A stretch of DNA of 64,000 nt from Mesorhizobium metallidurans STM 2683. GTDB taxonomy: Bacteria > Pseudomonadota > Alphaproteobacteria > Rhizobiales > Rhizobiaceae. Made by a program: the position numbers and the translations under genes. The stretch is taken from positions 1 through 64,000 of the forward strand of contig NZ_CAUM01000023.1 of the NCBI RefSeq assembly GCF_000350085.1, in the 5' to 3' direction. Shown piece by piece: positions 28,021 through 48,502 of this stretch. Numbering within the stretch: position 1 is the stretch's first letter; each line of letters starts with the position of its first letter. The notes beneath the pieces are model-generated. The model saw nothing but the letters and a program-made list of their open reading frames with translations. It ran no database searches and was not told where the DNA came from.

Positions 28021-28917
28021 TCATACAGATTTCGCTTGCTCTCTGCCAACGCCGGCAAGCTCGGCCATCTCCTTGACCAGCACGAACAGGTCGCGCTCGC
28101 CGTGGCCGTGCAGATAGGCGCTTTCGAATTGCTGCCTGATTTGCGCGGCGAGCGGCTGCGGCGCGTGGTTGGAGCGGCCGATATCGAGCAGGATGTCGAG
28201 GTCCTTCATGATCTGCGAGACGGCGAAGGCCGGCTCGTATTTGCCTTCGAGGATCATGGCGCGCTTGTACTGGATCAGAGGCGAGGCGACCGCGCTGTCG
28301 CAGATGACCTCCATCGCCGCCTCCAACCCGATGCCGCCCTTGCCGCTGAAGGCGAGCGACTCGGCCATCAGGGCCGCCGTCGCGCCGACCATGGCGTTGA
28401 CGGCCAGCTTCATGTAACGCGACTGCTCGCCGTCGCCGAGATAGAACTGCTTGCGGGTGTAGGCGGCGAGCAGCCGCTGCAGGCGCTCGAAATCGGCGCG
28501 CGGACCGGAAACCATCGTCGTCAGCGTGCCGGCCGCGGCAAGCGCGGTCGAGCCGGAGATTGGCGCGCGCAGATAGGCAACGTCGCGGGCTTCGAGCCGC
28601 TTTGCCACCAGGTTCGACGCCGAGGGCGAGACGGTGCTGGTGTCGACCCAACTCTGTCCCGCGCTCAGTTGCGCCGCCAGCGCATCGTCGCCGATGGCGA
28701 TATCGAGCAGCGCCGCATCGTCGGAAATCGCGGTGAAGACAACGTCGGAGCTTTCGGCGAGCGCAGCCATCGCCGAGACATGCTGATAGCCGTTGGCTGC
28801 GGCGCGTTCGCGGCCGGCATCGTTGCGGGCATAGGCGGTGATGGTGTGGCCGGCGTCATGCAGACGCCGCGACATGGGCAAGCCCATCTTGCCAAGGCCG
28901 ATCCACCCGATCCTCAT
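28021..28917 (-). CDS. Beta-hydroxyacid dehydrogenase (3-hydroxyisobutyrate/tartronate-semialdehyde type)
   Basis: A 298-residue NAD(P) enzyme. It has N-terminal GWIGLGKMGLPMSRRL (4-19), the substrate loop APISGSTALAAAGTLTTMVSG (about 115-135) and the catalytic-lysine helix MKLAVNAMVGATAALMAES (K about 168). Family members interconvert beta-hydroxyacids and semialdehydes. It is the last gene of the minus-strand run starting at the E1alpha gene, 52 bp after the CobW-like gene. It may handle a hydroxyacid made in that pathway; the substrate is not readable. Confidence 0.87.
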   Translation of the reverse strand: MRIGWIGLGKMGLPMSRRLHDAGHTITAYARNDAGRERAAANGYQHVSAMAALAESSDVVFTAISDDAALLDIAIGDDALAAQLSAGQSWVDTSTVSPSASNLVAKRLEARDVAYLRAPISGSTALAAAGTLTTMVSGPRADFERLQRLLAAYTRKQFYLGDGEQSRYMKLAVNAMVGATAALMAESLAFSGKGGIGLEAAMEVICDSAVASPLIQYKRAMILEGKYEPAFAVSQIMKDLDILLDIGRSNHAPQPLAAQIRQQFESAYLHGHGERDLFVLVKEMAELAGVGREQAKSV

Positions 28918-28969
28918 GGCTGTTCCTCGCTATTTTCGCGGCGCCGCGCCGTCTTACTCGCGCGTCGCC

Positions 28970-30142
<1,173 letters not shown>

Positions 30143-30162
30143 CTCACGCCTCGATCGTTACC

Positions 30163-31416
30163 TCAAAACACTTCGCAGCCGGGCAGGCCGCAGGAAATCA
30201 GCCGGTCGGACGGGAAGTTGGTGATGATCTCGCAGCCGTCCTTGGTGACGACCACCTCTTCCTCGATCCGGGCAGCACCGGTGCCGTCCTCGGCACCCTT
30301 CCACGTCTCCAGCGCAACGACCATGCCTTCGCGCAGCGGCGTGTTCTGGCCACGGAAACGCTTGGAGAAGATCGGCCGTTCCCACAGCGACAGGCCGACG
30401 CCGTGGCCATATTGCAATAGGAAGGCTTCCGCCTCGTCGCGATAGCCGAAATCCTGCGCGTCGGGCCAGACCGCCGCGACCTCGTCCGGCGTGATGCCCG
30501 GGCGGATCATGTCGATCGAGGCGCTGAGCCATTTCGAGGCGGTCTCATAGGCGTCGACCTGATGCTTGTTCGGCTCGCCGCAGATGAAGGTGCGGTAGTA
30601 GCAGGTGCGATAGCCATTGTAGGAATGCATGATGTCCAGGAAAATCATGTCGCCGGGCTGGATCATGCGGTCGGAGAAAGTGTGGGAATGCGGCCGCCCG
30701 CGCGAACCGGAAACCGAGTTCACGCATTCGACACGCTCCGATCCCATGCGGAACAACCGGTCGTTGGCAATGGCGACGAGTTCGTTTTCCTTGGTGCCGG
30801 GTCGGATGGCGCGGGCGATGTCGACATAGGTCGCGTCGACCATCGATGCCGCCACCTTGAGCAGTTCGATCTCGTCGAGGGTCTTGATCTCGCGGGCGTC
30901 GAGCAGGGCCTGCTGGCCGTCTACCACTTCGATGCCCTCGGCTTCGAGCGCCCGCAGCATGCCGAGCTCCATCAGGTCGATGCCGAGCGGCTCCTTCTCG
31001 ATGCCGTAATGAACCAGCGCCTTCTTGATCTGCCTGGCGAAGTCGCGCTGCACATTCATATGCGGCGGGATGGCGCCCTGCATGGTGGTGACGGGTGCGG
31101 CGACATTGTCGGCGATCCACGGCGAAGAAATGCGCTTGGCCGGCGGCGCCGGATCCCACAGGAAGGGCGAACCCTCGACCGGGCAAAGCGCATAGCGGAT
31201 GAACTTGTCGCGCGCCCACTCGCCGATATGGGTGGCGGTGACGTAGCGGATGTTGTCGAAGTTGAAGCACAGCACGGCGCCAAGGCCGGCATGGCGTATC
31301 GCACGCTGGGCGCGCGCCAGGCGCTCTTTCGAAAGCCGGCTGTAATCGACGCCCTGCTCCCAATCCTTCGCCATCTGGCCCCATGCGGCCGTGGAATAGG
31401 GACTGTTGTATTTCAT
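30163..31416 (-). CDS. M24-family (aminopeptidase P/creatinase fold) enzyme with altered metal site
   Basis: A 417-residue protein with a creatinase N-domain (about 35-175) and a pita-bread C-domain (185-417). The expected metal ligands are partly kept: D261 in IFLDIMHSYNGY, H338 in YGHGVGLSLWE, E370 in VALET and E385 in RIEEEVVV. The position of the second aspartate is C272 (RTCYYRTF). Canonical dimetal aminopeptidase activity is therefore doubtful. Non-peptidase members of the fold include creatinase and the DMSP lyase DddP. It lies 38 bp after the E2 gene and just before the CobW gene. Function unknown. Confidence 0.82.
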   Translation of the reverse strand: MKYNSPYSTAAWGQMAKDWEQGVDYSRLSKERLARAQRAIRHAGLGAVLCFNFDNIRYVTATHIGEWARDKFIRYALCPVEGSPFLWDPAPPAKRISSPWIADNVAAPVTTMQGAIPPHMNVQRDFARQIKKALVHYGIEKEPLGIDLMELGMLRALEAEGIEVVDGQQALLDAREIKTLDEIELLKVAASMVDATYVDIARAIRPGTKENELVAIANDRLFRMGSERVECVNSVSGSRGRPHSHTFSDRMIQPGDMIFLDIMHSYNGYRTCYYRTFICGEPNKHQVDAYETASKWLSASIDMIRPGITPDEVAAVWPDAQDFGYRDEAEAFLLQYGHGVGLSLWERPIFSKRFRGQNTPLREGMVVALETWKGAEDGTGAARIEEEVVVTKDGCEIITNFPSDRLISCGLPGCEVF

Positions 31417-31454
31417 TGACTATGCTCCTCCGCCATCACCTCGGATGGGTCTCG

Positions 31455-32804
31455 TTATCCAAATTCCGCGCCCCAATCGCGCTCTTCGAGCACGGCCTTC
31501 AGCCGTGACAGGAAAGCCGCCGAATAGGCGCCGTCAAAGGCACGGTGGTCGAAACTCTGGCCGACCATGCCGGTCAGCCTGGGCGCGACGAACGCCCCTT
31601 GCGGCGTCTCCACCACGCTCGCGCGCAGGCGGATTGCATCGGTCGACAATATGGCGACCTGCGGCGCGTTGATGATCGGCGCCGTGAAGGCCGTGCCGAA
31701 GGCGCCATTGTTCGAGATCGAATAGGTGCCGCCGGAAAAATCGTCACTGGTCAGCTTGCCGGCACGCGCCTTGTCGACCTGGCGGCCGATGGCACGGGCC
31801 AGACCGGGCAGCGTCAGGTCGTCGGCGTTGCGAACCACCGGCACGACCAGCCCGTTATGCGACAGGTCGACGGCGATGCCGAGATTGATTTCCGATGCCA
31901 GCACCAGCGTGCCGCCATCTAGCTGCGCGTTGACCTCGGGAAAATCGCGCAGCGCCAGGCAGATCGCCCGGGCGATGAAGGGCAGATAGGTCAACGACAG
32001 GCCGAAATCGCTCTTGAACCTTTCCTTGCGCTTCGACCGCACCGCTTCGACCTGGGTGAAATCGACTTCGATCGCCTGGAAGACATGCGGGATCGTGCGC
32101 CAGTTTTCGGCCAGCCGCTCGCCGGTGCGCTTGCGGATGGTGTTCAGCGTCACCACGCTGCCCGACGCTGCCGGCCTGGTGGCTTGCGCCGCCGCTGGGG
32201 CCGGGCTTTGCAACTGGGATCGTGGCGCGGCAAGGGCGGCGCGGACGTCCTTCTCGCCGATCTTGGTGGCGCCCGAGGCGGCGACGGTGCGGGCGATCGC
32301 CTCGGTGTCGAGGCCGTTCTGCGCGATCAGCCGGCGCGCCAGCGGGGTCACCCTGATACCGGACGGACTTTTGGCCGGTCCGAAGGATTCGATCGGTGTC
32401 GACACCTCTTCAAACGGCGAGGGTAGCTTGGCAGGCGCGGACCCATTGCCCGATGCGGCCAACGCCGAAGCAGGTGCAACCGTCGCGGCGCTGACAGGCG
32501 CGGGTTCGGCAGGCGCCGGTTTGACCGGTTCGGATCGGGCCGGCCCGGATGCCACGGCAGGTTTTGCCGCGCCGCCGATGACGGCGACCACGGCGCCGAC
32601 CTTGGCGACTTCGCCTGATTTGACCCTGATCTCGCCGAGCCGCCCGGCAACGGTCGACTGGACCTCCATCGTGACCTTGTCGGTCTCGATCTCGAAGAGG
32701 TTGTCGCCTTCGCTGACCTCGTCGCCCTCCTGCTTGAACCAGGCGAGGATCTTGCCTTCGGCGACCGTCTCGCCGAGCTGCGGCATCAGGATATCCGCGC
32801 TCAT
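31455..32804 (-). CDS. 2-oxoacid/acetoin dehydrogenase complex E2 (dihydrolipoamide acyltransferase)
   Basis: A 449-residue E2. The single lipoyl domain (1-80) carries lipoylated K43 in ETDKVTM. A proline/alanine-rich linker follows, then a peripheral-subunit-binding domain around TPLARRLIAQNGLD (about 155-190). The catalytic domain ends with the active-site DHRAFDGAY. The ATG at 32804 overlaps the E1beta stop as ATGA; the frame continues upstream only inside E1beta. It transfers the acyl group from lipoamide to CoA. No E3 gene is adjacent, so a shared E3 must be supplied elsewhere. Confidence 0.92.
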   Translation of the reverse strand: MSADILMPQLGETVAEGKILAWFKQEGDEVSEGDNLFEIETDKVTMEVQSTVAGRLGEIRVKSGEVAKVGAVVAVIGGAAKPAVASGPARSEPVKPAPAEPAPVSAATVAPASALAASGNGSAPAKLPSPFEEVSTPIESFGPAKSPSGIRVTPLARRLIAQNGLDTEAIARTVAASGATKIGEKDVRAALAAPRSQLQSPAPAAAQATRPAASGSVVTLNTIRKRTGERLAENWRTIPHVFQAIEVDFTQVEAVRSKRKERFKSDFGLSLTYLPFIARAICLALRDFPEVNAQLDGGTLVLASEINLGIAVDLSHNGLVVPVVRNADDLTLPGLARAIGRQVDKARAGKLTSDDFSGGTYSISNNGAFGTAFTAPIINAPQVAILSTDAIRLRASVVETPQGAFVAPRLTGMVGQSFDHRAFDGAYSAAFLSRLKAVLEERDWGAEFG

Positions 32805-33790
32805 CGCACCGATCCGTTCATGACCCGGCCGATCTTCTCGACGATGCGCGGCGCGTTGGGCAGCGCCAGGTCCTCGAGATGATCGGCGGCCGGCAGCGGG
32901 ATGTGCGGCGTGGTGATGCGCACGATCGGGCCATCGAGATCCCAGAACGCCTCGTCGGCGACGATCGAGGCGATCTCGGCGCCCCAGCCGCACAGGCGCG
33001 GGTTCTCCTCGACGGTGAACAGGTGGCCGGTCCTGGCGACGGAATTCAGGATGGTGTCGGTGTCGAGCGGCACCAGCGAGCGCACGTCGACGACCTCGCA
33101 GTCGATGCCGTGCTCTGCGGCCAGCGTCTCGGCGGCGGCCAGCGCGCGCGGCACCATCAGGGCCAGCGCCAGAATGGTGGCGTCCTTGCCGGGGCGCAGG
33201 ATCCTGGCGGTGCCGAGCGTGTCGAGGATCTCGCCGTCGGGCACCTCGCCCTTCACGGCGTAGAGCGACTTGTGCTCGTGGAAGATGACCGGATTGTCGT
33301 CGCGGACCGCCGCCGCCATCAGCCCGATGACGTCGATGGGCGAGGACGGCGCCACGACCTTGAGGCCCGGGATCATCATCGTCCAGTTCTCGATCGATTG
33401 CGAATGCTGGGCGCCGAAGCGGGCGCCGCCGCCATTGCCGGTGCGCACCACCAGCGGGCAGCCGAGCTGGCCGTTGGTCATGTAGCGCAGCTTGGGGAAC
33501 TCGTTGGCGATATAGTCGAAGCAGACCGCGGCGAAATCGGCGAACATGATCTCGGCGATCGGCCGCAAGCCGGTCATCGCCGCGCCCATCGCGGCGCCGA
33601 GGATCGCCTGTTCGGAGATCGGCGTGTCACGCACCCTGAGCGGCCCGAACTTCTCATAGAGCCCAACCGTCGACTTGAACACGCCGCCGGCCTTGGCGAC
33701 ATCCTCGCCCAGGAAGACGACATTGTTGTCGCGCTCCATCTCCTGGGCGATGCCGCGGGCCACCGCGTCGCGATAGGTCAATTCCGCCAC
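32801..33790 (-). CDS. 2-oxoacid/acetoin dehydrogenase E1 component, beta subunit
   Basis: A 329-residue transketolase-like beta subunit, normal length. Motifs include VVFLGEDVAKAGGVFKST near 25-42, RVRDTPISEQAILGAAMGAAMTGLRPIAEIMFADF (60-95) and QHSQSIENW. The GTG at 33790 (VAELTYRDAVARG) overlaps the E1alpha end by 13 bp and gives the standard N-terminus. Acts with the alpha subunit in TPP-dependent decarboxylation. The acetoin and branched-chain/pyruvate types cannot be told apart with certainty; nearby butanediol-dehydrogenase-like and SDR genes make acetoin worth testing. Confidence 0.92.
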   Translation of the reverse strand: MAELTYRDAVARGIAQEMERDNNVVFLGEDVAKAGGVFKSTVGLYEKFGPLRVRDTPISEQAILGAAMGAAMTGLRPIAEIMFADFAAVCFDYIANEFPKLRYMTNGQLGCPLVVRTGNGGGARFGAQHSQSIENWTMMIPGLKVVAPSSPIDVIGLMAAAVRDDNPVIFHEHKSLYAVKGEVPDGEILDTLGTARILRPGKDATILALALMVPRALAAAETLAAEHGIDCEVVDVRSLVPLDTDTILNSVARTGHLFTVEENPRLCGWGAEIASIVADEAFWDLDGPIVRITTPHIPLPAADHLEDLALPNAPRIVEKIGRVMNGSVR

Positions 33791-34806
33791 GACCAGCCTC
33801 CGTCGGCATAAACATCGGTGGTGAGGAGTTCGACAGGCGCCGACGGCGAGGCCTTGCAGGCCTCGGTGGCGGCATCGACCTTGCGCTTGCTCTCGGCGTC
33901 GATCGCCGCGACCTGCGCGTCGGAGATGCCGAATTCCCTGAGGCGTTCGCGGTAGATCTTGATCGGGTCGCGCTCGAGCCATTTCTCCAGCTCGCCCTCC
34001 GGACGATACTTGGCCGGGTCGGCGCGCGAATGGCCTGAATGCCGATAGGTCATGCATTCGATCAGCGAGGGGCCGTCGCCCTTGCGCGCCTTGGCAAAGG
34101 CGGCCTGCGCGGTGCGGTAGACGACGTCAGCATCATTGCCGTCGATGACGATCCGCTCCAGCCCGTAGGCCGAGGCCCTGTCGGCGGCCGGATGTTCGAC
34201 GGCCGTCACGTCGGCGATCGGCGTGTATTCCATGTAGAGGTTGTTCTCGCAGATGAAGACGACCGGCAGCTTCCAGATGGCGGCGAAGTTCAGCGCCTCG
34301 TGGAAGGCGCCGATATTGGTCGTGCCGTCGCCGAAGAAGCAGACGGAGACATCCTTCTGGCCGAGATATTGCGCCCGCCAGGCCGATCCGCAGGCGATCG
34401 GCAGATGCGCGCCGATGATGGCGTAGGAACCCATGACGCCGTGCTCGACGGAGGTGAGATGCATCGAGCCGCCCTTGCCACGCATCAGGCCGTTGTCACG
34501 CAGCATCAGTTCGCCAAGCACCTTCTCCATCGGCACGCCGCGGGCCAGCGTGTGCGCGTGGCCGCGATAGGTGCAGAAGGATTTGTCGCCCGGCTGCATC
34601 GCCACCGCGACGCCGGCCGCAATGCCTTCCTGGCCAAGCGAGAGATGGCTCGTGCCCTTGATCAGGTTCTGGAAAAAGAGATCGTTGGCTCTCTTTTCGC
34701 AGTCGCGGATCTCGACCTGGAGCCGATAGAGCTCGAGACGGATATCGGGACCGATATCGTCGTTTGGCAGGCCCGCGGCGCGGGACCCTTTCTGTTTCTC
34801 TCGCAT
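33778..34806 (-). CDS. 2-oxoacid/acetoin dehydrogenase E1 component, alpha subunit
   Basis: A 342-residue TPP enzyme subunit. The TPP/Mg motif is GDGTTNIGAFHEALNFA ... ENN (about 168-197). Substrate-channel residues lie in YRGHAHTLARG and GKGGSMHL, and the phosphorylation-loop region reads TYRHSGHSRADPAKYR. The frame extends 18 codons upstream, but the ATG at 34806 (MREKQKG) follows GGTGGAA and is preferred. It heads the minus-strand run E1alpha-E1beta-E2-M24-CobW-hydroxyacid dehydrogenase. Two operator candidates lie 64 and 143 bp upstream in the gap to the fusion regulator. Confidence 0.92.
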   Translation of the reverse strand: MREKQKGSRAAGLPNDDIGPDIRLELYRLQVEIRDCEKRANDLFFQNLIKGTSHLSLGQEGIAAGVAVAMQPGDKSFCTYRGHAHTLARGVPMEKVLGELMLRDNGLMRGKGGSMHLTSVEHGVMGSYAIIGAHLPIACGSAWRAQYLGQKDVSVCFFGDGTTNIGAFHEALNFAAIWKLPVVFICENNLYMEYTPIADVTAVEHPAADRASAYGLERIVIDGNDADVVYRTAQAAFAKARKGDGPSLIECMTYRHSGHSRADPAKYRPEGELEKWLERDPIKIYRERLREFGISDAQVAAIDAESKRKVDAATEACKASPSAPVELLTTDVYADGGWSWRN

Positions 34807-34869
34807 GTTATGGTTCCACCCTAGATGCCAGACCATGCCAAAATCGTCCGGACCGGGCATGGGCCATTA

Positions 34870-34884
34870 TTCTCATATTGAACA
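34870..34884. promoter_or_regulatory. Palindromic operator candidate, site 3
   Basis: TTCTCATATTGAACA, 64 bp upstream of the E1alpha start, so well placed to control the dehydrogenase operon. Confidence 0.55.
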
Positions 34885-34948: not shown

Positions 34949-34963
34949 TTCTCATTTTGAGAA
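34949..34963. promoter_or_regulatory. Palindromic operator candidate, site 4 (perfect palindrome)
   Basis: TTCTCA-TTT-TGAGAA, a perfect six-base inverted repeat and the best match to the six-site family. The neighbouring site is 79 bp away centre to centre. Confidence 0.6.
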
Positions 34964-35284: not shown

Positions 35285-37036
35285 GTGTTAGGTTTGGTCG
35301 AAGAGCTGCACGAAGGGCCGGTAACCGATCGAATGACCGATTACGAGCTGCTTCGCATCATCAATTTCCTCGAGCGCATCCGCGCGCCCTATGATGAGAA
35401 GCTGAACGCGGCGATCCCCGATCCGGTGTGGAACATCGTCCTCTATCTCATGAAGAGCCATCTGCGCGGCGACACCGTCACCATGTCGTCGCTGGCGTCG
35501 GTTTCCCAGATCCCGTTTCCGAGCGCCATGCGGCGCATCCACAGGCTGATCGACGATGGCGATGTCGAACAGATGAGCCGCAGCGCGACGGGAAAGTCGT
35601 ATTTCCTGGTTCCCAGCAGAAAGCTCAAATCCAATTTCGTCGCCTACGCCATCCGGGTGAAGGCGCTGCTTGCCGAAACCTTCGGGCTCGGCGGCGGCAG
35701 CGCCAATGCGGAGGAGTATTATTTCGGCGGCTCCTACCTTGCCGACCAGATCATCCCGCCGCTCAAGCTGATGGAAAACCGCCAGGCGCCGAGCCAGGAC
35801 CTGCGCTTCCTGCTGCACGACGACAACTACTTCTCGTCGATGCGCAACATGTGGTCGGACTTCCGCAGCAAATTGTCCTCGCGGCGCAATTTCCGCCTGG
35901 TGGCGCTGCCGGAGCTGCACAAGGAGATCTTCAAGAACGCGCGCCGCCCGGCCAGCGAATACGATGTCATGGCCGTGAACATCCCGTGGCTGGGCGAGGT
36001 CGTCAAACACGGGCTGGTGCAGCCGCTGAACAGTTTCCTGGTCGACAGCGGCATCAATTCGCTCGACTTCCACCCCAACATCTGGGCGACCGGAAACTGG
36101 GATACGGTGCAGTATGGCGTGCCGATCTACTGCACCATCGAGACGCTGGCGGTGCGCAAGGACCTGTTCGAGGGCCACGACCTGCACATGCCGACGAGCT
36201 TCGAGAAGGTGCTGGACGCGGCGCGCCAGCTTCACAACCCAAAGCGGGGCATGCACGGCATCGTCTGGAACGCAGCGCGCGGCATGCCGATCGCCCATTC
36301 CTTCATGTTCTTCATGGGCGCCTGCGGCACCCCTGTCATCAACGTGCCGATGGCGCGCGTCGCCTTCGACTACAGCCACATGGCCGGCGAGATGTACCGG
36401 CCGCGCGTGAACACCGAGCAAGGCATGAAGACGCTCGACTACATGCGCCGGCTGCTGGCCTTCTCGCCGCCCGACATACTGGTCATGGACTGGAACCGGG
36501 CGCTCGACTGCTTCATGCTCGGCCAGTCGGCGATGATCTATTGCTGGACGATGCGGGCCTCGCGCTTCGAGTACGACATCCGTTCGGTGGTCAAGCGCAA
36601 GGTCGAATATCTGCCGCATCCGCATGGGCCTGGTGGAGCCGTGGTCGGTCCCGTCGGCGGCTTTTTGCTGACCATCCCCGCCGGCCTGCCGCCGGAGCGC
36701 ACCAAGCTTGCCTTCGAGGCGATATCCTGGATGGCGTCGCCCGCCGCCATGAAGGAGCATGTCAAGAACGGCATACCGGTGGCGCCCCGCTTCAGCGTCA
36801 CCGCCGATCCCGAGGCGGCCGCGACGACGCCGATCGTGCGCATGGTCGACAGGCTGGCCAAGCAGAACAAGCTGCATGGCTGGCACCGGCCGCCGATCCC
36901 CGAATATACGCTCATCGAGAAGATCATCGGCGACGAGATCTTTGCCGCGCTCAACGGCGAGCTCACCGACCGCGAGGCACTCGAACGCTGCCAGAACGGC
37001 ATCGACAAGGTGATGCGGGCGGCGGGCCATTATTGA
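35285..37036 (+). CDS. Winged-helix/solute-binding-protein fusion, putative cytoplasmic sugar-sensing regulator
   Basis: A 583-residue protein with no signal peptide. Residues about 40-140 look like a MarR-type winged helix: VWNIVLYLMKSHLRGD, then TMSSLASVSQIPFPSAMRRIHRLIDDGDV, and the wing RSATGKSYFLVP. Residues about 160-575 resemble a family-1 extracellular solute-binding protein, with YDVMAVNIPWLGEVVKHGLVQPL, YGVPIYCTIETLAVRKDLFEG and GGAVVGPVGGFLLTIPAG. A periplasmic-type ligand domain is thus joined to a DNA-binding domain in the cytoplasm. The GTG at 35285 follows GGGAGGA; an ATG at 35333 is the alternative. It lies directly before a CUT2 importer. The regulator role is inferred from the architecture. 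Confidence 0.75.
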   Translation: MLGLVEELHEGPVTDRMTDYELLRIINFLERIRAPYDEKLNAAIPDPVWNIVLYLMKSHLRGDTVTMSSLASVSQIPFPSAMRRIHRLIDDGDVEQMSRSATGKSYFLVPSRKLKSNFVAYAIRVKALLAETFGLGGGSANAEEYYFGGSYLADQIIPPLKLMENRQAPSQDLRFLLHDDNYFSSMRNMWSDFRSKLSSRRNFRLVALPELHKEIFKNARRPASEYDVMAVNIPWLGEVVKHGLVQPLNSFLVDSGINSLDFHPNIWATGNWDTVQYGVPIYCTIETLAVRKDLFEGHDLHMPTSFEKVLDAARQLHNPKRGMHGIVWNAARGMPIAHSFMFFMGACGTPVINVPMARVAFDYSHMAGEMYRPRVNTEQGMKTLDYMRRLLAFSPPDILVMDWNRALDCFMLGQSAMIYCWTMRASRFEYDIRSVVKRKVEYLPHPHGPGGAVVGPVGGFLLTIPAGLPPERTKLAFEAISWMASPAAMKEHVKNGIPVAPRFSVTADPEAAATTPIVRMVDRLAKQNKLHGWHRPPIPEYTLIEKIIGDEIFAALNGELTDREALERCQNGIDKVMRAAGHY

Positions 37037-37059: not shown

Positions 37060-37166
37060 TAAAGCGCGTCGCGTTTGAACGGATTCATGCGACGCGCTTT
37101 AGGTTCCTGTTTTTATGCATGTCGTTATCGCAAAACCGCTGCGCACTTTTGCGCGACATACTTTAG
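37060..37166. repeat. Rhizobial palindromic repeat (two modules)
   Basis: Module 1: TAAAGCGCGTCGC (37060-37072) pairs perfectly with GCGACGCGCTTTA (37089-37101). Module 2: a 50-bp unit at 37117-37166 begins GCATGTCGTTATCGCAAAAC and recurs almost unchanged at 63651-63700, with a partial relative at 47946-47975. Confidence 0.8.
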
Positions 37167-37180
37167 GGGCTCCGGTCAAA

Positions 37181-37195
37181 GTCTCAAAATGATAA
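37181..37195. promoter_or_regulatory. Palindromic operator candidate, site 5
   Basis: Read on the minus strand, TTATCATTTTGAGAC. It is located 184 bp before the second CUT2 binding-protein gene. The rest of the gap (37196-37378) holds a 7-bp hairpin, AGACGCC/GGCGTCT (37240-37259), and the ribosome site GGAGGA. Confidence 0.55.
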
Positions 37196-37378: not shown

Positions 37379-38533
37379 ATGAGCAACATCTCAAGACGCT
37401 TTGCCATGCTTTTGGTGGGCGCTGCCGGTCTGGCCGCTTTGGCTGCCCCTGTCCTGGCGCAGGACGCGAAATTCTACAGCGGCGCCCCGCGGACCTATCT
37501 CTACAATCCCGACACCGACGTCTGCTTCAAGGACACCTCGCAGTACAAGAAGGAAGGCCCCTACACGATCGGGTTTTCCAATGCCGGTCTCGGCGATTCC
37601 TGGCGCGTCGTGATGCTGCATTCCATGGAGGCCTCCGCCGCCAAGCATAAGGACCAGATCAAGAAGCTGATCATCACCGATGCCGGCCATGACGACGCCA
37701 AGCAGGTCGCCGACATCCAGGACCTGATTTCGCGCGGCGTTGATCTCCTGATCGTCAGCGCCAACACGCAGCAGGCGCTCGATCCGGCCGTGTCGCAGGC
37801 GATGGCGGCCGGCATCCCGGTGGTGATGGTCGACCGTCGCGTCGCTTCCGACAATTTCGTCACCTTCGTGACGGCGTCCGACGCCATGATGGGTCGCCTG
37901 TTCGCGCAGTGGATCGTCGAGAAGCTTGGCGGCAAGGGCAACGTCATCATGCTGGCGGGCCAGGCAGGCTCGAGCCCGTCCGAAAACCGAGAAAAGCCGG
38001 CGCGCGAGGTCTTTGCGCAGTATCCCGGCATCAAGGTGCTCGAAACCGTCTATTCCGACTGGTCGCCGGTCAAGGGCAAGCAGGTCATGCAGGCGATGAT
38101 CGCCAAGTACGGCAAGCAGATCAACGCGGTCTGGTCGGCACATGGCTTGCAGACCCCGGGTTCGATCGAGGCCTTCATCGAAGCCGGCTACAAGGATGGC
38201 GAAATCCCGCCGCACACCACGGCTGATGTCAACGGGCCACTGCAGATGGCGATCGAGCACAAAGTGCCGATGCTCGAAGTCGGCTATCCGCCGGCGATGG
38301 GCGGCATCTCGGTCGATGTCGCGTTGCAAGTGCTGGCCGGCGCGCCGGTGCCTTGCATCTACACGATCAACTCGCAGATCGCCGTCTCGGAAGGCGACAA
38401 CACGCCGTCGATCGAAACGCCGCTGCGGCTGACCGACCTGGTGGTGCCGAAGGGTGCGCCGGACATGCTGATCACCGGCGGCATGGGACCGGACTATGAT
38501 CCCAAGACCTTCAAGGTCGACTACCCGCAATAG
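37379..38533 (+). CDS. CUT2 sugar ABC transporter substrate-binding protein
   Basis: A 384-residue periplasmic protein. The signal peptide MSNISRRFAMLLVGAAGLAA... is cut near APVLA (about residue 27). The mature protein has the ribose-binding fold: YTIGFSNAGLGDSWRVVMLHSME, LISRGVDLLIVSANTQQALDPAVSQAMAAGIPVVMVDR and VNGPLQMAIEHKVPMLEVGYPPAMGG. The ATG at 37379 follows GTGGAGGA. It leads SBP-ATPase-permease-permease and then the oxidoreductase series. The ligand is unknown. Confidence 0.92.
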   Translation: MSNISRRFAMLLVGAAGLAALAAPVLAQDAKFYSGAPRTYLYNPDTDVCFKDTSQYKKEGPYTIGFSNAGLGDSWRVVMLHSMEASAAKHKDQIKKLIITDAGHDDAKQVADIQDLISRGVDLLIVSANTQQALDPAVSQAMAAGIPVVMVDRRVASDNFVTFVTASDAMMGRLFAQWIVEKLGGKGNVIMLAGQAGSSPSENREKPAREVFAQYPGIKVLETVYSDWSPVKGKQVMQAMIAKYGKQINAVWSAHGLQTPGSIEAFIEAGYKDGEIPPHTTADVNGPLQMAIEHKVPMLEVGYPPAMGGISVDVALQVLAGAPVPCIYTINSQIAVSEGDNTPSIETPLRLTDLVVPKGAPDMLITGGMGPDYDPKTFKVDYPQ

Positions 38534-38547
38534 TCTTCGATTTCGCC

Positions 38548-38582
38548 AGGGTGACCCGGGGGCAAGAGCCCTGGGTCATCCC
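38548..38582. terminator. Intercistronic stem-loop between binding protein and ATPase
   Basis: GGGTGACCC near 38549-38557 pairs with GGGTCATCCC near 38573-38582, with an inner GGGGGC/GCCC helix. There is no T-run. It occupies the same position as the stem-loop at 23884-23925 in the other CUT2 operon, probably tuning binding-protein excess. Confidence 0.5.
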
Positions 38583-38600
38583 GCAAATTGGACAGAGCGA

Positions 38601-40121
38601 ATGTTGAATCTTTCGGGCATTTCAAAGAGCTTCATCGGCGTGCAGGCGCTGTCGGGCATCAATCTCGACGTGCGCGCGGGCGAGATCCATGCGCTCGTCG
38701 GCGAAAACGGCGCCGGCAAATCGACCACGATCAAGATCGTGGCCGGCGTCTACAAGCCCGATGCCGGCCAGATGGAGTTCGAGGGCAAGCCCGTACAGTG
38801 GGCGAGGCCCGCCGACGCCAAGAACGCCGGCATCCATGTCATCTATCAGGAATTCGTGCTGTTTCCGCACCTGACGGTGGCCGAGAACATCTATCTCGGC
38901 CATGAGCGGCGCAACCGCTTCGGCTTTGTCGACCACGCGCGCACGCGCCAGGACGCATCCGACCTTTTGCGCAGGCTCGGCGTCGATATCGATCCGCAAA
39001 TCCTGGTTTCGGAGCTGACGGTGGCCGACCAGCAGATGGTCGAAATCTCCAAGGCGCTGGTCCACAAGGTCAAGCTGCTGATCCTCGACGAGCCGACAGC
39101 CGTCATCTCCGGCCGGGAAGCCGATCTCCTGTTTGCCAGGCTGGCAGCGCTCAAGGCAGAGGGCGTCGCCATCCTCTATGTGTCGCACCGGCTCGAAGAG
39201 ATCTTCCAGATCGCCGACCGCGTCACCGTCTTCAAGGACGGCGCCCATGTCGCGACCAAGGACATCGGCGACGTCACCCGCGACAGGCTGATCTCGATGA
39301 TGGTCGGGCGCGACCTGAAGGACATCTTCCCGCCGAAGAAGCCGAAAGGCGAACCGGGCAAGGTGGTGCTGAAGGCGGAGAACGTCTCCGTCGAGGGCCG
39401 CGTCAGAAATGCCGGCATCGAAGTCCGCGCCGGCGAGATCACGGCGCTGGCCGGCCTGGTCGGCGCCGGCCGGACGGAACTGGCGATGGGCATATTCGGC
39501 GGCCTGCCGATGTCGTCCGGCAACGTATGGATCGACGGCGAGAAGGTCGACACCATCACGCCGGCAACGGCGATCAGCAAGGGCGTCGGTTTCGTCACCG
39601 AGGACCGCAAGGGACAGGGGCTGGCGATGTTCCTCGATGTCGCCGCCAACATCAGCGCCGCCAACCTTTCGGCGGTGACCCGCAACGGCCTGATCGACCG
39701 GCGGCTGGAGAACGAGATCGCCCGCAAGGAAATCGACAATTACCGGGTCGTCTGCCGCGGTCCGGCGACCAGCGTGGCGACGATGTCGGGCGGCAACCAG
39801 CAGAAGGTGATCGTGGCGCGCTGGGCGCGCACCAGCCGCAAGGTGCTGATCCTGGACGAACCGACCCGCGGCGTCGATGTCGGCGCCAAGACCGAGATCT
39901 ACCGCATCATGCGGGGCCTCGCCGGGGAGGGCATTGCGATCCTGATGATCAGTTCCGAACTGCCCGAAGTGGTCGGCATGTCGGACCGCGTCATCGTCAT
40001 GCGCGAGGGCGCGATCAGCGGCGAGCTGACCGGAGCCAATATCAGCGAGGAAGCGATCATGAGCCTTGCGACCCAGCATCCGACCGGCAAGGTCCCAATA
40101 GACAAGGTCTTTGCCCAATGA
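38601..40121 (+). CDS. CUT2 sugar ABC transporter ATPase (tandem domains)
   Basis: A 506-residue tandem ATPase with both halves canonical for CUT2. Domain 1 has GENGAGKST, LTVADQQMVEISKAL and LLILDEPTAVI. Domain 2 has GLVGAGRTEL, MSGGNQQKVIVARWA and VLILDEPTRGVDVGAK. The ATG at 38601 (MLNLSGISKSF) is chosen because it puts the first Walker A at the usual residue 40. Its stop overlaps the next permease start as ATGA. It contrasts with the degenerate ATPase at 23966-25474. Confidence 0.94.
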   Translation: MLNLSGISKSFIGVQALSGINLDVRAGEIHALVGENGAGKSTTIKIVAGVYKPDAGQMEFEGKPVQWARPADAKNAGIHVIYQEFVLFPHLTVAENIYLGHERRNRFGFVDHARTRQDASDLLRRLGVDIDPQILVSELTVADQQMVEISKALVHKVKLLILDEPTAVISGREADLLFARLAALKAEGVAILYVSHRLEEIFQIADRVTVFKDGAHVATKDIGDVTRDRLISMMVGRDLKDIFPPKKPKGEPGKVVLKAENVSVEGRVRNAGIEVRAGEITALAGLVGAGRTELAMGIFGGLPMSSGNVWIDGEKVDTITPATAISKGVGFVTEDRKGQGLAMFLDVAANISAANLSAVTRNGLIDRRLENEIARKEIDNYRVVCRGPATSVATMSGGNQQKVIVARWARTSRKVLILDEPTRGVDVGAKTEIYRIMRGLAGEGIAILMISSELPEVVGMSDRVIVMREGAISGELTGANISEEAIMSLATQHPTGKVPIDKVFAQ

Positions 40122-41080
40122 CCGCGCTGGCTCCCATCAGACTGTCATCGAGGGTGCGCAAGAACCAGGGCGTCCTGGTCGTCGCCGTACTTCTGGTCAT
40201 CCTGCTGATCTTCGGCGCCTTCATTTCCGACCGGTTCCGGACCACCTCCAACATCCTCAACATTTTCGAACAGTCGACGGGCCTTGCCCTGGTCAGCCTC
40301 GGCCAGACCCTGGCGATCCTCACCGGCGGCATCGATCTTTCCGTCGGCTCGATGATCAGCCTGCTGTCGACCCTGACCTCCGGCCTGATCGCCGGGAAAG
40401 TATCAATGGTGCCGCCGGTGGCTATCGGCATTCTCCTGCTCGGCCTGCTGATCGGCATCTGCAACGGCCTGCTCATCATCTGGCTGCGCGTCCACCCGCT
40501 GATCGTCACGCTGGGTATGAGCGCGGTGCTGCAGGGCATCGTCCTGCTCTATTCGCTGGGGCCGGCGGGCTCTGTGCCGCCAAGTTTCAACTTCCTCGCC
40601 TATGGTAAAGTGCTCGGCCTGCCGATCGGCGCCGTCTTCATCCTCGTGCTCTTCCTGCTGGTGGCGCTGTTCCTGCGCTATGCCAGGCTCGGCCGCTACA
40701 TCTATGCTGTCGGCGACGACGAGGTCGGCGCGCGGCTGATGGGCCTGCCCAGGGCGCGGGTGATGCTGACGGTCTACGGGTTTTCCGGCTTCTGCTGCGG
40801 GCTGGCCGCCATCTACCTGACCAGCCGGTTCAGCGTCGGACAGCCCTATACCGGGCTCAACTACACGCTCGCCTCGATCACGCCGGTGGTCGTCGGCGGG
40901 ACGCTGCTCAGCGGCGGCAAGGGCGGCGTCTTCGGCACGCTGCTCGGCGTCTATCTCATCTCGCTCCTGAACAACGTCCTCAACTTCATGGACGTGTCGA
41001 TGCACTACCAGCTCATCGCCCAGGGCCTGATCGTGATCGCGGCGGTGTCGGTCTATGTCGAGAAGAAGAAGAGGGTCTGA
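40118..41080 (+). CDS. CUT2 sugar ABC transporter permease 1
   Basis: A 320-residue multi-span membrane protein with CUT2 motifs LAILTGGIDLSVGSMISL, IWLRVHPLIVTLGMSAVLQG, YAVGDDEVGARLMGLPRARV and SGGKGGVFGTLLGVYLISLLNNVLNF. It overlaps the ATPase gene by four bases and the second permease by one base, so translation is coupled. With the next gene it probably forms a heterodimeric channel. Confidence 0.93.
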   Translation: MTALAPIRLSSRVRKNQGVLVVAVLLVILLIFGAFISDRFRTTSNILNIFEQSTGLALVSLGQTLAILTGGIDLSVGSMISLLSTLTSGLIAGKVSMVPPVAIGILLLGLLIGICNGLLIIWLRVHPLIVTLGMSAVLQGIVLLYSLGPAGSVPPSFNFLAYGKVLGLPIGAVFILVLFLLVALFLRYARLGRYIYAVGDDEVGARLMGLPRARVMLTVYGFSGFCCGLAAIYLTSRFSVGQPYTGLNYTLASITPVVVGGTLLSGGKGGVFGTLLGVYLISLLNNVLNFMDVSMHYQLIAQGLIVIAAVSVYVEKKKRV

Positions 41081-42048
41081 TGGTCGATGTCTCTCAAGCA
41101 CGCGGCGCGGAGGGTCCGGCGATCTCGATGAAAAGCCGGCTGTCTTCCTATGCGCTGCCGATCTTCCTGATCGCCCTGATCGCCGTTTCGGGCATCGTCT
41201 CGCCGGCCTTCCTGTCGACCAGCAACATCTCCAATATGCTGCTGCAGGTCGCCCCGCTCGGCATCGTCGTCATCGGCCAGGCTTTCGTTATCATCCTGCG
41301 CGGCCTCGACCTTTCGGTGTCGTCGGTGATGGCCACCGCCGCGGTCATTGCGACCGGATTCTCCGGCCAGAACTCCGACGTGCTTTCGATCCTCTTGATC
41401 GCGGTCGGCATCGGCATCGCCACCGGCCTCGTCAATGGCTGGCTGGTGACCAAGCGCAGCGTTTCGCCGTTTCTCGCCACGCTGGCCACGATGATCGTGC
41501 TGCAGGGTTTTCGGTTTGCCTATACGCAAGGCGCGCCGTCCGGCAACGTGCCGCCGCTGTTTCGCCTGATCGGCTCGTCGACCTGGCATGGCGTGCCCTA
41601 CAACATGATGCTGCTCGTCGTGCTGGCGGTCGTCTTCGGCGTTGTACTGGCCAAGTCGCGCTTCGGCCGCGAGGTCTACATCACCGGCGGCAATCCGACG
41701 ACGGCGCGCCTGCTCGGCATCAATGCCGACCGCGTCACCATCATCGGCTATGTCATTTCCGGTGCGCTCGCGGCGATCGCCGGCCTGGTGCTGAGCGGCT
41801 ATGTCGGCATCGTCGACAATTGGGTCGGCCGTGGCTTCGAGCTGGATTCGATCGTCGCTGCGGTGATGGGCGGCATATCGCTGTCGGGCGGCCAGGGCGG
41901 CATCCTTGGCGGGCTGTTCGGCGCCGCCATCCTGGTCGTCGTCTTCAACGCCGTGCTGCTGTTCGGGCTGCCGGTGCAGTTGCAGATCATCATCAAGGGC
42001 ATGGTCATCGTTTTGGCCGCCGCCTTCTACGTGCGGCGGCGCATCTAG
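41080..42048 (+). CDS. CUT2 sugar ABC transporter permease 2
   Basis: A 322-residue membrane protein, clearly related to the preceding permease but not a recent duplicate. It has VIILRGLDLSVSSVMATAAVIATGF, YITGGNPTTARLLGINADRV and GGISLSGGQGGILGGLFGAAILVVVFNAVLLFGLP. It starts in a TGATG junction with permease 1 and is followed after 55 bp by an SDR gene with AGGAGGA, so the importer and catabolic genes form one long operon. Confidence 0.93.
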   Translation: MVDVSQARGAEGPAISMKSRLSSYALPIFLIALIAVSGIVSPAFLSTSNISNMLLQVAPLGIVVIGQAFVIILRGLDLSVSSVMATAAVIATGFSGQNSDVLSILLIAVGIGIATGLVNGWLVTKRSVSPFLATLATMIVLQGFRFAYTQGAPSGNVPPLFRLIGSSTWHGVPYNMMLLVVLAVVFGVVLAKSRFGREVYITGGNPTTARLLGINADRVTIIGYVISGALAAIAGLVLSGYVGIVDNWVGRGFELDSIVAAVMGGISLSGGQGGILGGLFGAAILVVVFNAVLLFGLPVQLQIIIKGMVIVLAAAFYVRRRI

Positions 42049-42103: not shown

Positions 42104-42871
42104 ATGGGCAGACTTCAGGACAAGGTCGCTATCGTCACCGGCGGCGCCCGCGGCATTGGCGGCGCGACGGTTCGCCGCTTCGTCGAGGAAGGCGCCAAGG
42201 TGGCGATCATCGACGTGCTGGAGGATGACGGCGAGGCGCTGGCGAAGGAGCTTTGCGATGGCGGCGCCGAGGCGATCTTCCTTAAGGTCGACATCACCAA
42301 GGAACAGGAGGTGCAGGCAGCGGTCGACAAGGTCGTCAAGAAATGGGGCCGCCTCGACATACTGGTGAACAATGCCGCGATCACCGGCGTCAACAAATTC
42401 GCGCATGAGGTGACGGTCGAGGAGTGGGACAAGGTCTTCGACGTCAATGTCAAAGGCACGTTCCTGTGCACCAAATATGCGGTGCGGCCGATGATGGAGC
42501 AGAAGTCCGGCGCCATCGTGAACTTCTCGTCGATCTACGGCCTCATCGGCAATGACGACATCCCGCCCTACCACGCCACCAAGGGCGCGACGCTGATGAT
42601 GAGCAAGACGGATGCGATCTGCTACGCGCCCTATGGCATCCGCGTCAACGCGGTGCATCCCGGCTCGACCATGACCGAGATCTTCATGAAGTGCGCCGAC
42701 ACCTATCCCAGGGGTAAGCAGGCCTATCTCGACATGATGAAGGAGAAGCATCCGCTGCGCCTCGGCGAGCCGGTGGATGTGGCTAACTGCGTGCTGTTCC
42801 TCGCTTCGGAGGAAGCGCGTTTCGTCACCGGCGCCAGCCTCGTCGTCGACGGCGGCTACACGACACAGTGA
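42104..42871 (+). CDS. SDR-family oxidoreductase
   Basis: A 255-residue classical SDR. TGGARGIGGA (12-21), IIDV after beta-2 suggesting NAD, LVNNAAITG, SSIYGLIG and YHATK as active site, and GASLVVDGGYTTQ at the end. The ATG at 42104 follows AGGAGGA. It is the first of three SDRs in this operon (with 44015-44794 and 47198-47917). Glucose-1-dehydrogenase-like or polyol/acetoin dehydrogenase activity is typical of the branch. The substrate is inferred only from the sugar importer upstream. Confidence 0.86.
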   Translation: MGRLQDKVAIVTGGARGIGGATVRRFVEEGAKVAIIDVLEDDGEALAKELCDGGAEAIFLKVDITKEQEVQAAVDKVVKKWGRLDILVNNAAITGVNKFAHEVTVEEWDKVFDVNVKGTFLCTKYAVRPMMEQKSGAIVNFSSIYGLIGNDDIPPYHATKGATLMMSKTDAICYAPYGIRVNAVHPGSTMTEIFMKCADTYPRGKQAYLDMMKEKHPLRLGEPVDVANCVLFLASEEARFVTGASLVVDGGYTTQ

Positions 42872-42893
42872 TTGCATTTCCGGAGACCAGATC

Positions 42894-43961
42894 ATGAAAG
42901 CCGTCCGATTCCACGCAGCCAGGGATATCAGGGTCGAGGACGTCGCCGAGCCGACAGCGCGGCTCGGTGCGCATGACGTGCTGATCAAGCCCGTCATCAC
43001 CGGGATCTGCGGCACCGACCTGCACGAATATATAGCCGGGCCGATCGTCACGCCTGTTACCCCGCATGTCTATAGCGGCGCGACCAACCCGCAGATCCTC
43101 GGCCATGAATTCAGCGCCGTCGTCGCCGACGCCGGTTCCGGGGTTACCAATGTGAAGGCTGGCGATCGCGTTTCGATCCAGCCGCTGATCTCGCCGCGCG
43201 ACGATTATTTCGGCCGGCGCGGGCTCTATCACCTCAGCCCGCAAATGGCCTGCGTCGGCCTGAGCTGGAAATGGGGCGGCATGAGCGAACTCGCCATCGT
43301 CAACGACTATAATGTCGTGCCGGTACCAAAGGGCGTCAGCGACATCCAGGCGGCGATGATCGAGCCGGCCGCCGTCGCCATCTACGGCACCGACCGCGGC
43401 GGCGTGCAGTCGGGATCGACCGTTCTGGTTTCCGGCGCCGGACCGATCGGCGCGCTGACGCTGCTGGCGGCCAAGGCGGCGGGCGCGGCACAGATCTTCG
43501 TCAGCGAGCCGAACCCCAACCGCCTTGCCAAGGCTAGGGAGTTGGTGCCCGACTGCATCGCCATCGACCCGGCCAGGGACAATCTCGACCAGATCATCTC
43601 CGACTTGACCGAGGAAGGCGTCGGCGTCGACGTGGCGCTTGAGTGCGTCGGGCTGGAGGCGAGCCTCAACGCTTGCGCCAGGGCGGTGCGCCGCCAGGGC
43701 AAGGTGGTGCAGACCGGCCTGCACATGAAGCCCGCCAGCATCGATGCGATGCTGTGGGCGCTGAAGGACATCACGGTCGAGGCGACCTGGTGTTACCCGG
43801 TGCAGGTATGGCCGCGCGTCATCCGCATGGTCGAGGCCGGCATCCTGCCACTCGAGAAGGTGGTGACGGCAAAAATCTCGGCCGACGACGTGGTGGAGAA
43901 GGGCTTCGAGGCCCTGCTCGACAAGGCCGGCAAGCACTTGAAGATCCTGGTGAGCGTCTAG
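42894..43961 (+). CDS. Zinc-type alcohol dehydrogenase (butanediol/sorbitol dehydrogenase-like) without structural zinc
   Basis: A 355-residue medium-chain dehydrogenase. The catalytic zinc ligands are in GICGTDLHEY (C38) and GHEFSAVVADAGSGV (H and E about 70). The NAD-binding loop is SGAGPIGALTLL (about 180-191). The lobe that normally holds four structural-zinc cysteines keeps its length, but its residues read ISPRDDYFGRRGLYHLSPQ, with none of the four cysteines. The closest pattern is the (R,R)-butanediol/L-threonine dehydrogenase branch. Second enzyme gene of the operon after the CUT2 importer. Confidence 0.85.
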   Translation: MKAVRFHAARDIRVEDVAEPTARLGAHDVLIKPVITGICGTDLHEYIAGPIVTPVTPHVYSGATNPQILGHEFSAVVADAGSGVTNVKAGDRVSIQPLISPRDDYFGRRGLYHLSPQMACVGLSWKWGGMSELAIVNDYNVVPVPKGVSDIQAAMIEPAAVAIYGTDRGGVQSGSTVLVSGAGPIGALTLLAAKAAGAAQIFVSEPNPNRLAKARELVPDCIAIDPARDNLDQIISDLTEEGVGVDVALECVGLEASLNACARAVRRQGKVVQTGLHMKPASIDAMLWALKDITVEATWCYPVQVWPRVIRMVEAGILPLEKVVTAKISADDVVEKGFEALLDKAGKHLKILVSV

Positions 43962-44014
43962 CTGCGGACGACCCCGCTGTCGCGACCCAACGCAATAACT
44001 GAGGAAATATCGAA

Positions 44015-44794
44015 ATGGCAAGCAATGCATTCGCGAACTATTCGCTCGAGGGCAGAACGGCAATCGTGACCGGTGCGGCCGGCGGCATCGGCAGCGCGAT
44101 CACCGAGCGGCTGGGTAGCCTCGGCGCGACGGTCGTGCTTGCCGACGTTACCGGCCGCGTGGTCGACGCCGCCAAGGAATGGTCGGACAAGGGGTTCAAG
44201 ACCAAGGGCGTCAAGGTCGACGTCACCAACAGCGCCGATGTCGAGAAAGCCGCGGCTCGCCTCAATGAGGAGTTCGGTGCGATCGACATACTGGTGGCCA
44301 ATGCCGGCATCTCCTACGAAAGCACGACCGCGGATCACTCCGACGAGGACTGGCGCCGCTGCATGTCGATCAACCTCGACGGCATCTTTTTTTGCGTGCG
44401 CTCCTTCGGCAAGCGCATGGTCGAGCGCAGGCGCGGCAGCGTCGTGTGCATTTCCTCGATCGCCGGCATCAAGGCGGTACGGCCGGAACTGCATGCCGGC
44501 TATGACGTCTCCAAGGCCGGCGTCGCCCATCTCTGCCGCGTCGTCGGCGTCGAATGGGCGCCCTACAATGTCCGCGTCAATGCGGTCGGGCCGGGCTACA
44601 CCGAGACCGAAATGCTGAAGAAGGTTGGCGCGGCGCAGCCCGAAATCATGGCGACCTGGATCAACGACACCCCGATGAAACGCCTGCTGCAGCCGGCCGA
44701 GATCGCGGCGTCTGTCGCCTTCCTGGCCTCTGATGCGGCGAGCGGCATCACCGGCCATGTGCTGATGACCGATGCCGGCTACTCGGCTTCATAG
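44015..44794 (+). CDS. SDR-family oxidoreductase
   Basis: A 259-residue SDR. TGAAGGIGSA (18-27), LADV after beta-2, LVANAGISYES, SSIAGIKAV, YDVSK as catalytic motif, and a C-terminal TGHVLMTDAGYSAS. It follows the alcohol dehydrogenase by 53 bp. Probably an oxidation step in the same sugar or polyol route; the substrate is not readable. Confidence 0.85.
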   Translation: MASNAFANYSLEGRTAIVTGAAGGIGSAITERLGSLGATVVLADVTGRVVDAAKEWSDKGFKTKGVKVDVTNSADVEKAAARLNEEFGAIDILVANAGISYESTTADHSDEDWRRCMSINLDGIFFCVRSFGKRMVERRRGSVVCISSIAGIKAVRPELHAGYDVSKAGVAHLCRVVGVEWAPYNVRVNAVGPGYTETEMLKKVGAAQPEIMATWINDTPMKRLLQPAEIAASVAFLASDAASGITGHVLMTDAGYSAS

Positions 44795-44845
44795 GATTCC
44801 TGTTGGAAGCAACGGGCAGAGACAGCATCAGAATCGGAACCGAGC

Positions 44846-45862
44846 ATGACTTCAGCGCAGGACAGGCCCGTCAGGGTGGCAATGGTTGGCCTCGGCTGGT
44901 GGGGCCGCAAGATGGTGGCGGTGCTGGAGGGCGCCAGGGCGCATCTCGACGTGGTCTGCGCCGTCGAACCCGCGCCCGGCGCCGAAGATTTCTGCGCCGA
45001 CCATGGCCTCAAGCTGACCGTGGAATACGCCGACGCCCTGAAGAATCCCGATGTTGAAGCCGTCATCCTGGCGACGCCGCATTCGCTGCACGAACAGCAG
45101 ATCGAAGATGCGGTGGCGGCGGGCAAGCATGTCTTTTGCGAAAAGCCGCTGGCGATGACCAAGGCCGGTGCGGAAAAGGCGGTGGCGTTGTGCAGAGAGG
45201 CAGGTCTTGTTCTCGGCATGGGGCATGAGCGGCGCTTCGAGCCGCCGATCGCCGGCATGCTGTTGGCGGCCGCCGATGGCCGCCTCGGCCGCATCCTGCA
45301 GGTCGAGGCGAATTTCAGCCATGACAGATTCCTCGGCCTCGATCCATCGAACTGGCGGCTGAACGCCAGGCAGGCGCCGGCGGCGGGCATGACCGCGACC
45401 GGCATCCATCTGACCGATCTTTCGGCGAAGCTGCTCGGGCCGGCGCGCGATGTCCGTGTCGCCTGCGAGAACCTGGCGTCGCAGATCCCGCAAGGCGATA
45501 CGCTGAGCGCGCATATCCGCTTCCATGGCGGTGGCACGGCCTATGTCTCGGCGACGCTCGCCACGCCCTTCGTCTCGCGCTTTGCCGTGTTCGGCACCAA
45601 GGGCTGGATCGAGGTGCGCGACAAGGCCCATGTCGAGGCGCCGGCCGGCTGGGTGGTCACCAGCGCCGCGACCGGCACGCCGATCGAAGTGGAAGAGGTC
45701 GGCCCGGCCGAACCGGTGCGCGACAATCTGGTGGCCTTTGCCGCGGCGGTGCGCGGCCGTCAGGCCTATCCGATCACCGGCGAGGACATGATCAACAACA
45801 TCGCCATCCTCGAAAGCATCATCAAGTCGGCGGCGACCGGAATGGTCGAGACGGTCGGCTGA
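44846..45862 (+). CDS. Gfo/Idh/MocA family oxidoreductase (paralogue of 54547-55545)
   Basis: A 338-residue protein. Rossmann motif VAMVGLGWWGRKM (10-22), VILATPHSLHEQQ, the catalytic FCEKPLAMT (about 98), GHERRFEPP, and the substrate-site stretch TATGIHLTDLSAKLLG. The same unusual blocks recur in the enzyme at 54547-55545, so the two are paralogues. The third family member in the window, at 9989-11050, is more distant. Members oxidise ring hydroxyls of sugars or cyclitols to ketones, or reduce them. Operon position suggests action on the CUT2 substrate. Confidence 0.87.
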   Translation: MTSAQDRPVRVAMVGLGWWGRKMVAVLEGARAHLDVVCAVEPAPGAEDFCADHGLKLTVEYADALKNPDVEAVILATPHSLHEQQIEDAVAAGKHVFCEKPLAMTKAGAEKAVALCREAGLVLGMGHERRFEPPIAGMLLAAADGRLGRILQVEANFSHDRFLGLDPSNWRLNARQAPAAGMTATGIHLTDLSAKLLGPARDVRVACENLASQIPQGDTLSAHIRFHGGGTAYVSATLATPFVSRFAVFGTKGWIEVRDKAHVEAPAGWVVTSAATGTPIEVEEVGPAEPVRDNLVAFAAAVRGRQAYPITGEDMINNIAILESIIKSAATGMVETVG

Positions 45863-48487: not shown

Positions 48488-48502
48488 GTTTCATATTGAG
48501 AA
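48488..48502. promoter_or_regulatory. Palindromic operator candidate, site 6
   Basis: GTTTCATATTGAGAA, 74 bp before the Old Yellow Enzyme start. Matches the family found at 20722, 22727, 34870, 34949 and 37181. Confidence 0.5.

Follow-up and report, generated by a model that had tools for sequence, protein, structure and literature searches.

The window, as the whole stretch of 64,000 nucleotides from Mesorhizobium metallidurans STM 2683 is called here, holds a gene for a protein in which a winged helix is joined to a solute-binding domain. The gene lies between a divergent run of enzyme genes and a CUT2 importer, with candidate operators in the intergenic DNA on both sides:

28021..34860, reverse strand: divergent run of genes for an NAD_binding_2 dehydrogenase, a CobW-like protein, an M24-like protein, a lipoyl E2, E1-beta and E1-alpha
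34870..34884, unstranded: second candidate operator, two mismatches, just 5' of the divergent E1-alpha gene
34949..34963, unstranded: candidate operator, the perfect palindrome TTCTCA-TTT-TGAGAA, sole exact TTCTCA-NNN-TGAGAA in the 6.23-Mb genome
35333..37036, forward strand: fusion gene (winged helix plus solute-binding domain), 567 aa
35420..35686, forward strand: MarR-like winged-helix domain, residues 30-118 of 567, placed by profile comparisons
35822..37012, forward strand: family-1 solute-binding domain, about residues 164-560 of 567, with Pfam SBP_bac_1 at 35954-36754
37181..37195, unstranded: third candidate operator, two mismatches, 5' of the CUT2 importer operon
37379..38533, forward strand: CUT2 periplasmic binding protein (Peripla_BP_4)
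38601..40121, forward strand: CUT2 ATPase (ABC_tran), also seen as a longer ORF
40154..42048, forward strand: two CUT2 permeases, 40154-41080 and 41128-42048 (BPD_transp_2)
42104..45862, forward strand: oxidoreductases 3' of the importer, namely an SDR, a Zn-dependent dehydrogenase, a second SDR and a Gfo/Idh protein

The M24, E2 and E1-beta labels in the divergent run derive from the translations as read and from annotated relatives.

The reading frame of the fusion is open on the forward strand from 35285 to 37036 and yields 583 aa when counted from the GTG at 35285, where the preliminary description had placed the start. The frame stands, while the start probably shifts to the ATG at 35333, giving 567 aa, because 108 of 120 relatives among the matches listed are 565-569 aa long. 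An in-frame stop is also found immediately 5' of the equivalent methionine in two loci (L007 and L032). The GTG is kept as an alternative start because the nearest relatives (80-81% identity) are recorded at 580-581 aa.

The second half of the protein is a solute-binding domain. SBP_bac_1 is the sole Pfam match of the window protein (6.5e-21, residues 224-490 of 583, 76 bits vs a cut-off of 26), and NCBIfam returned no match at E up to 0.01. A profile built from 43 sequences aligns this half to 5iai with an E-value of 9.7e-47, covering chain residues 37-420 of 422, and also matches 1eu8 (trehalose/maltose) and 4rya (sorbitol). The full-length family-1 domain that had been proposed for about residues 160-575 is thereby confirmed.

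For the first half, the preliminary description had suggested a MarR-like winged helix at about residues 40-140. Pfam finds no winged-helix match in the window protein's own N-terminus; it assigns MarR_2 to the N-terminal domains of 16 of 37 relatives (best 4.2e-6), and other winged-helix families to fewer of them. A search of the PDB with the N-terminal profile gave 29 sequences at E up to 10, of which 16 are named MarR or SlyA and two fall below 0.01, the best at 0.0011. Profile-profile comparisons were made with domains from the same genome, using 14 of 51 MarR_2, 14 of 46 GntR and 7 of 10 IclR matches; the probabilities were 93.1% for MarR, 93.0% for IclR and 27% for GntR, against 0.06-0.30% for four unrelated families that served as controls, and the match spans residues 30-118 of 567. 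These results support the suggested winged helix, which is best termed MarR-like, as its scores to MarR and to IclR are nearly equal. The domain is conserved throughout the fusion family. It also resembles MarR-like domains that stand at or near the C-terminus of other proteins (L064-L066, L076-L087), in several of them behind a receiver domain.

A search of genome contigs recovered 53 distinct fusion loci, 46-99% identical and mostly named as Alphaproteobacteria, and the scoring of 8000 candidates gave 708 proteins at E up to 0.001, so the fusion is no chance join. Judged from these searches, it belongs to a family numbering hundreds of such fusions. A further 13 full fusions were confirmed in whole genomes, and the window's own genome carries a single copy. 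The N-terminal profile has matches at E up to 0.01 in 12 of 101 related genomes (7 of the 12 being full fusions, own genome included) and, at the level of the class, at 1e-8 in 20 of 385 genomes (8 of the 20 being demonstrated full fusions, again with the own genome). In the phylum, the whole profile is matched by 4 of 299 genomes at 1e-100, the own genome among them. Relatives are found on 32 plasmid records as well, the distant ones at 35-39% identity. Weaker matches of the N-terminal profile in other genomes turned out to be other proteins; of ten that were run through Pfam, eight were non-members and two were members. The search for proteins with the same domain order and for their neighbours thus returned a family near which CUT2 genes recur.

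In the window the importer (37379-42048) begins 343 bases past the stop codon of the fusion; its binding-protein gene is the next gene, followed by those for the ATPase and both permeases, as expected from the earlier statement that the fusion sits directly before a CUT2 importer. Of 54 loci, the window included, 48 have CUT2 genes in the vicinity of the fusion, and four of the six loci without them are on stretches shorter than 14 kb. Other recurring neighbours are Zn-dependent dehydrogenases, SDRs, Gfo/Idh, PRISE-like, YCII and NAD_binding_2 proteins. No other regulator recurs among the annotated neighbourhood clusters. The set of M24-like protein, E1-alpha, E1-beta and lipoyl protein seen at 28021-34860 is found again with the regulator and CUT2 importers in distant Rhodobacterales (L093, L094, L098, L100). 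That the fusion delivers solute to a CUT1 importer encoded next to it was considered and dismissed, as CUT1 permeases like those of Aminobacter lie nearby in 1 of 54 loci (BLAST with one reference pair); an exception is Aminobacter, where a CUT1 importer adjoins the fusion on pUSP2.

The palindromes of the window were first spotted by reading its intergenic DNA, and their arms are separated by a spacer of 3 bp. The perfect site (34949) and a weaker one (34870) lie between the fusion gene and the divergent operon, and another weaker site (37181) precedes the importer. At up to two mismatches the window holds four sites; shuffled versions have a mean of 1.3, and four or more are present in 9 of 100. 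A site at 48488 was taken as chance. Genome-wide, the uniqueness of the perfect site is alone informative because matches at one mismatch are not enriched (2 places for the pattern vs 3 for a backwards control). As the count in the window is not rare by itself, the case for operators depends on comparison across loci.

For this comparison, any 6-bp dyad with a spacer of 0-9 was searched for in the divergent intergenic regions of loci grouped by the recognition helix of their fusion, and each group was set against the best of 30 shuffled sets. An ungrouped first look had also yielded many chance palindromes, and the grouped test alone was kept. Group E is the remainder, three unlike loci, and L016 was left out because its fusion gene was not called. 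In clade A, to which the window belongs, TTCTCA with spacer 3 is found in 9 of 11 loci, tied with overlapping versions of itself (shuffled best 6); in clade B, TATCCG with spacer 3 is found in 17 of 20 (shuffled best 7); and in clade C, CATCCA with spacer 3 is found in 13 of 16, an overlapping form with spacer 7 reaching 14 (shuffled best 7). These motifs keep largely to their own clades. The A motif is absent from all 42 loci of other clades, the B motif occurs in 4 of 16 C loci and 0 of 17 elsewhere, and the C motif in 1 of 11 A loci and 0 of 26 elsewhere; TGTCCA is scattered over the groups (1/11, 2/20, 3/16, 1/3 and 1/3). Permuted half-sites reach at most 6, 4 and 1 loci in A, B and C, and direct-repeat versions 1, 0 and 1. 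The half-site sequence follows the fusion's recognition helix.

Identity in the arms is 0.93, 0.82 and 0.83 for A, B and C among non-redundant loci, vs 0.28, 0.40 and 0.34 in the flanks, values for the arms that are biased upward because the sites were chosen by motif. Similarly, motif matches number 0.70 per kb of intergenic and 0.047 per kb of coding DNA, an enrichment that is partly circular because the motifs were derived from those intergenic regions. Recurrence of the palindrome at separate promoters of one locus is, as far as sequence can tell, less dependent on shared descent. It is found at two intergenic regions in the window, L001-L004, L006, L032 and Aminobacter, and at three in L022 and L040. 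Among the eight clade-A loci that have a CUT2 binding-protein gene, seven carry a site before it, L011 being the miss. Eight annotated plasmid loci were scanned as well: four contain such a palindrome (L092, L095, L098, L100), and by the criterion used none was found in the other four (L093, L094, L096, L099).

A follow-up set consisted of 13 loci outside the derivation of the motifs, of which 12, at 29-71% identity to the first set, were counted; L059 was not, because it is 98.6% identical to L032 (including it would give 5/13). A site within one mismatch of the expected type is present in 4 of the 12, vs 0 of 12 reversed sequences, with L058 carrying the clade-A type and L062, L070 and L072 the TCC type; the remaining 8 of 12 have no site within one mismatch. 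At two mismatches the excess is slight (6/12 vs 4/12 reversed).

With the domain make-up and the clade-specific palindromes at promoter positions computed here, and with the missing leader described below, the fusion very likely works in the cytoplasm as a one-component transcription regulator that controls the importer and the catabolic genes. We infer that its winged helix would bind the palindromes as a dimer (TTCTCA-NNN-TGAGAA in the window's clade) at the promoters that drive the divergent catabolic operon and the adjacent CUT2 importer, and probably at the promoter of the fusion gene as well. The family-1 solute-binding domain would be the effector domain, its presumed effector being either the imported compound, which would resemble a sugar or a polyol, or an intermediate derived from that compound. 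Closing of this flytrap around the effector would alter DNA binding, and the protein would most likely be a repressor released by its ligand, a direction of control that is favoured because the sites sit between divergent genes. Judged from the enzymes encoded nearby, the substrate may be a polyol or a cyclic polyol.

Two rival explanations, each improbable, accept part of this evidence. According to the first, some other regulator reads the palindromes, and the fusion has a different function, such as that of a cytoplasmic adaptor for the importer. Binding of the palindromes by the fusion is a prediction from sequence, the relatives have intergenic DNA in common through descent, and part of the loci have no sites, all of which leaves this reading some room; it has little chance of being right, however, because the half-sites shift with the recognition helix of the fusion and the annotated neighbourhood clusters offer no other recurrent regulator. 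In the second, the operators are bound by the fusion and its solute-binding half provides structural or dimer contacts alone, with no sensing of a small molecule. This would agree with the variation of neighbouring pathways between clades while the domain stays conserved, and ligand binding is a prediction; yet conservation across the family is strong over the whole of the solute-binding half, as expected of a working receptor (a comparison at the level of the whole domain), and a purely structural role is accordingly quite unlikely. A one-component regulator that would sense what the importer brings in is therefore preferred.

A cytoplasmic location was examined by hydropathy and start analysis, with gene starts as called automatically. 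Over 12-residue segments of the first 70 residues, hydropathy in the window protein peaks at 1.14; the 53 fusions have a median of 1.14 (range 0.77-1.69) and 45 neighbouring CUT2 binding proteins a median of 1.91 (range 0.72-2.71), so that the ranges overlap. By these two means no hydrophobic leader or export signal was found in the window protein or the 53 fusions, which, together with the stop before the methionine in L007 and L032, bears out the earlier claim that a signal peptide is absent, and export of the protein was rejected. That the fusion might still be a normal, exported solute-binding protein whose N-terminus was misread, as its sole Pfam match and its database names would have it (solute- or substrate-binding protein and one hypothetical protein, among those listed), is scarcely credible given the lack of a leader across 53 fusions, the family-wide conservation of the N-terminal winged helix, the stop codons just mentioned and 53 of 54 loci without a nearby CUT1 permease by the one reference pair, Aminobacter pUSP2 with its adjoining CUT1 importer aside. 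The missing leader and the clade-specific palindromes near promoters thus support what had been proposed at the outset, a cytoplasmic regulator tied to the adjacent importer.

Members of the MarR family are small, stand-alone dimeric proteins. The fusion is like them in its winged helix by profile and in the palindromic sites between divergent genes, and unlike them in that this domain heads a protein of 567 aa (583 from the alternative start) with a solute-binding domain, and in that the window protein has no Pfam MarR match. To the family-1 (MalE-class) solute-binding proteins, such as 5iai and 4rya, it is homologous over the full-length domain, but it has no leader, has gained a winged helix and is usually found without a nearby CUT1 permease. 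LacI/GalR and Btr/YbbB regulators likewise join a cytoplasmic binding-protein fold to a DNA-binding domain, as is proposed here; their binding-protein classes and HTH types differ from those of the fusion, and neither a LacI-type HTH nor a periplasmic-binding-protein-like domain was matched in the window protein (Pfam, E up to 1).

The closest precedent in overall plan comes from SgrR of E. coli and DsvR of Vibrio, which PMC13060122 describes as transcription factors with an N-terminal HTH and a C-terminal SBP_bac_5 domain. The order of an N-terminal HTH and a solute-binding domain is shared with the fusion, while the solute-binding domain itself is SBP_bac_5 in SgrR and DsvR and SBP_bac_1 here. 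SBP_bac_5 is absent from the window protein in Pfam at E up to 1, where SBP_bac_1 is the only hit. SgrR_N (PF12793) is not among the 20 Pfam families listed for the 37 N-termini. The fusion is kept apart from SgrR because its solute-binding class is another one and because the tests for SgrR-specific domains failed. The earlier remark that this architecture was unrecognised therefore holds in part: the general plan has a forerunner in SgrR and DsvR, and for the version with SBP_bac_1 behind a winged helix no description was found in the open-access literature.

A group of proteins annotated as exported sugar-binding proteins are hence most likely transcription regulators, and with both operators and target operons predicted, their regulons and ligands can be tested directly. 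The family would show how the receptor of an importer became a cytoplasmic sensor, and it lends itself to work on the evolution of DNA specificity because its half-sites change with the recognition helix.

In some clades the neighbourhood also includes an intradiol dioxygenase and an iron alcohol dehydrogenase (maleylacetate reductase in RefSeq), both below every NCBIfam cut-off tried; in L014, a 3-oxoacid CoA-transferase subunit and a 3-oxoadipyl-CoA thiolase score above theirs. Such ring-cleavage genes were seen beside the fusion and sugar-type importers at L031:3747-5684, L014:9716-12320, L092, L095 and L099, and may form part of a pathway that turns a cyclic polyol into hydroxyquinol. By formula, a deoxy-inositol such as quercitol would fit, as C6H12O5 minus H2 minus 2 H2O gives C6H6O3. 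A more far-reaching idea, put forward tentatively and rather unlikely to hold, is that in several clades the regulons would serve a CUT2-imported, sugar-like ring compound that is converted by dehydrogenation and loss of water to hydroxyquinol and then to 3-oxoadipate, a pathway proposed from gene content, and that an undescribed family of regulators would read the cyclic polyol with a flytrap moved to the cytoplasm.

Two minor observations concern the importer and its surroundings. In many loci of relatives, represented by L024:9714-12263 and neighbourhood cluster 8 (median 818 aa, 26 loci), the ATPase of the CUT2 importer is fused with a permease into one protein of about 820-850 aa with ABC_tran twice and BPD_transp_2, for which the window has separate genes. 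In the gap between the fusion and the importer, a G+C-rich inverted repeat with GCGTCGC / GCGACGC-like arms was noticed by eye at about 37060-37105 of the window; it is possibly a terminator or a dispersed palindrome.
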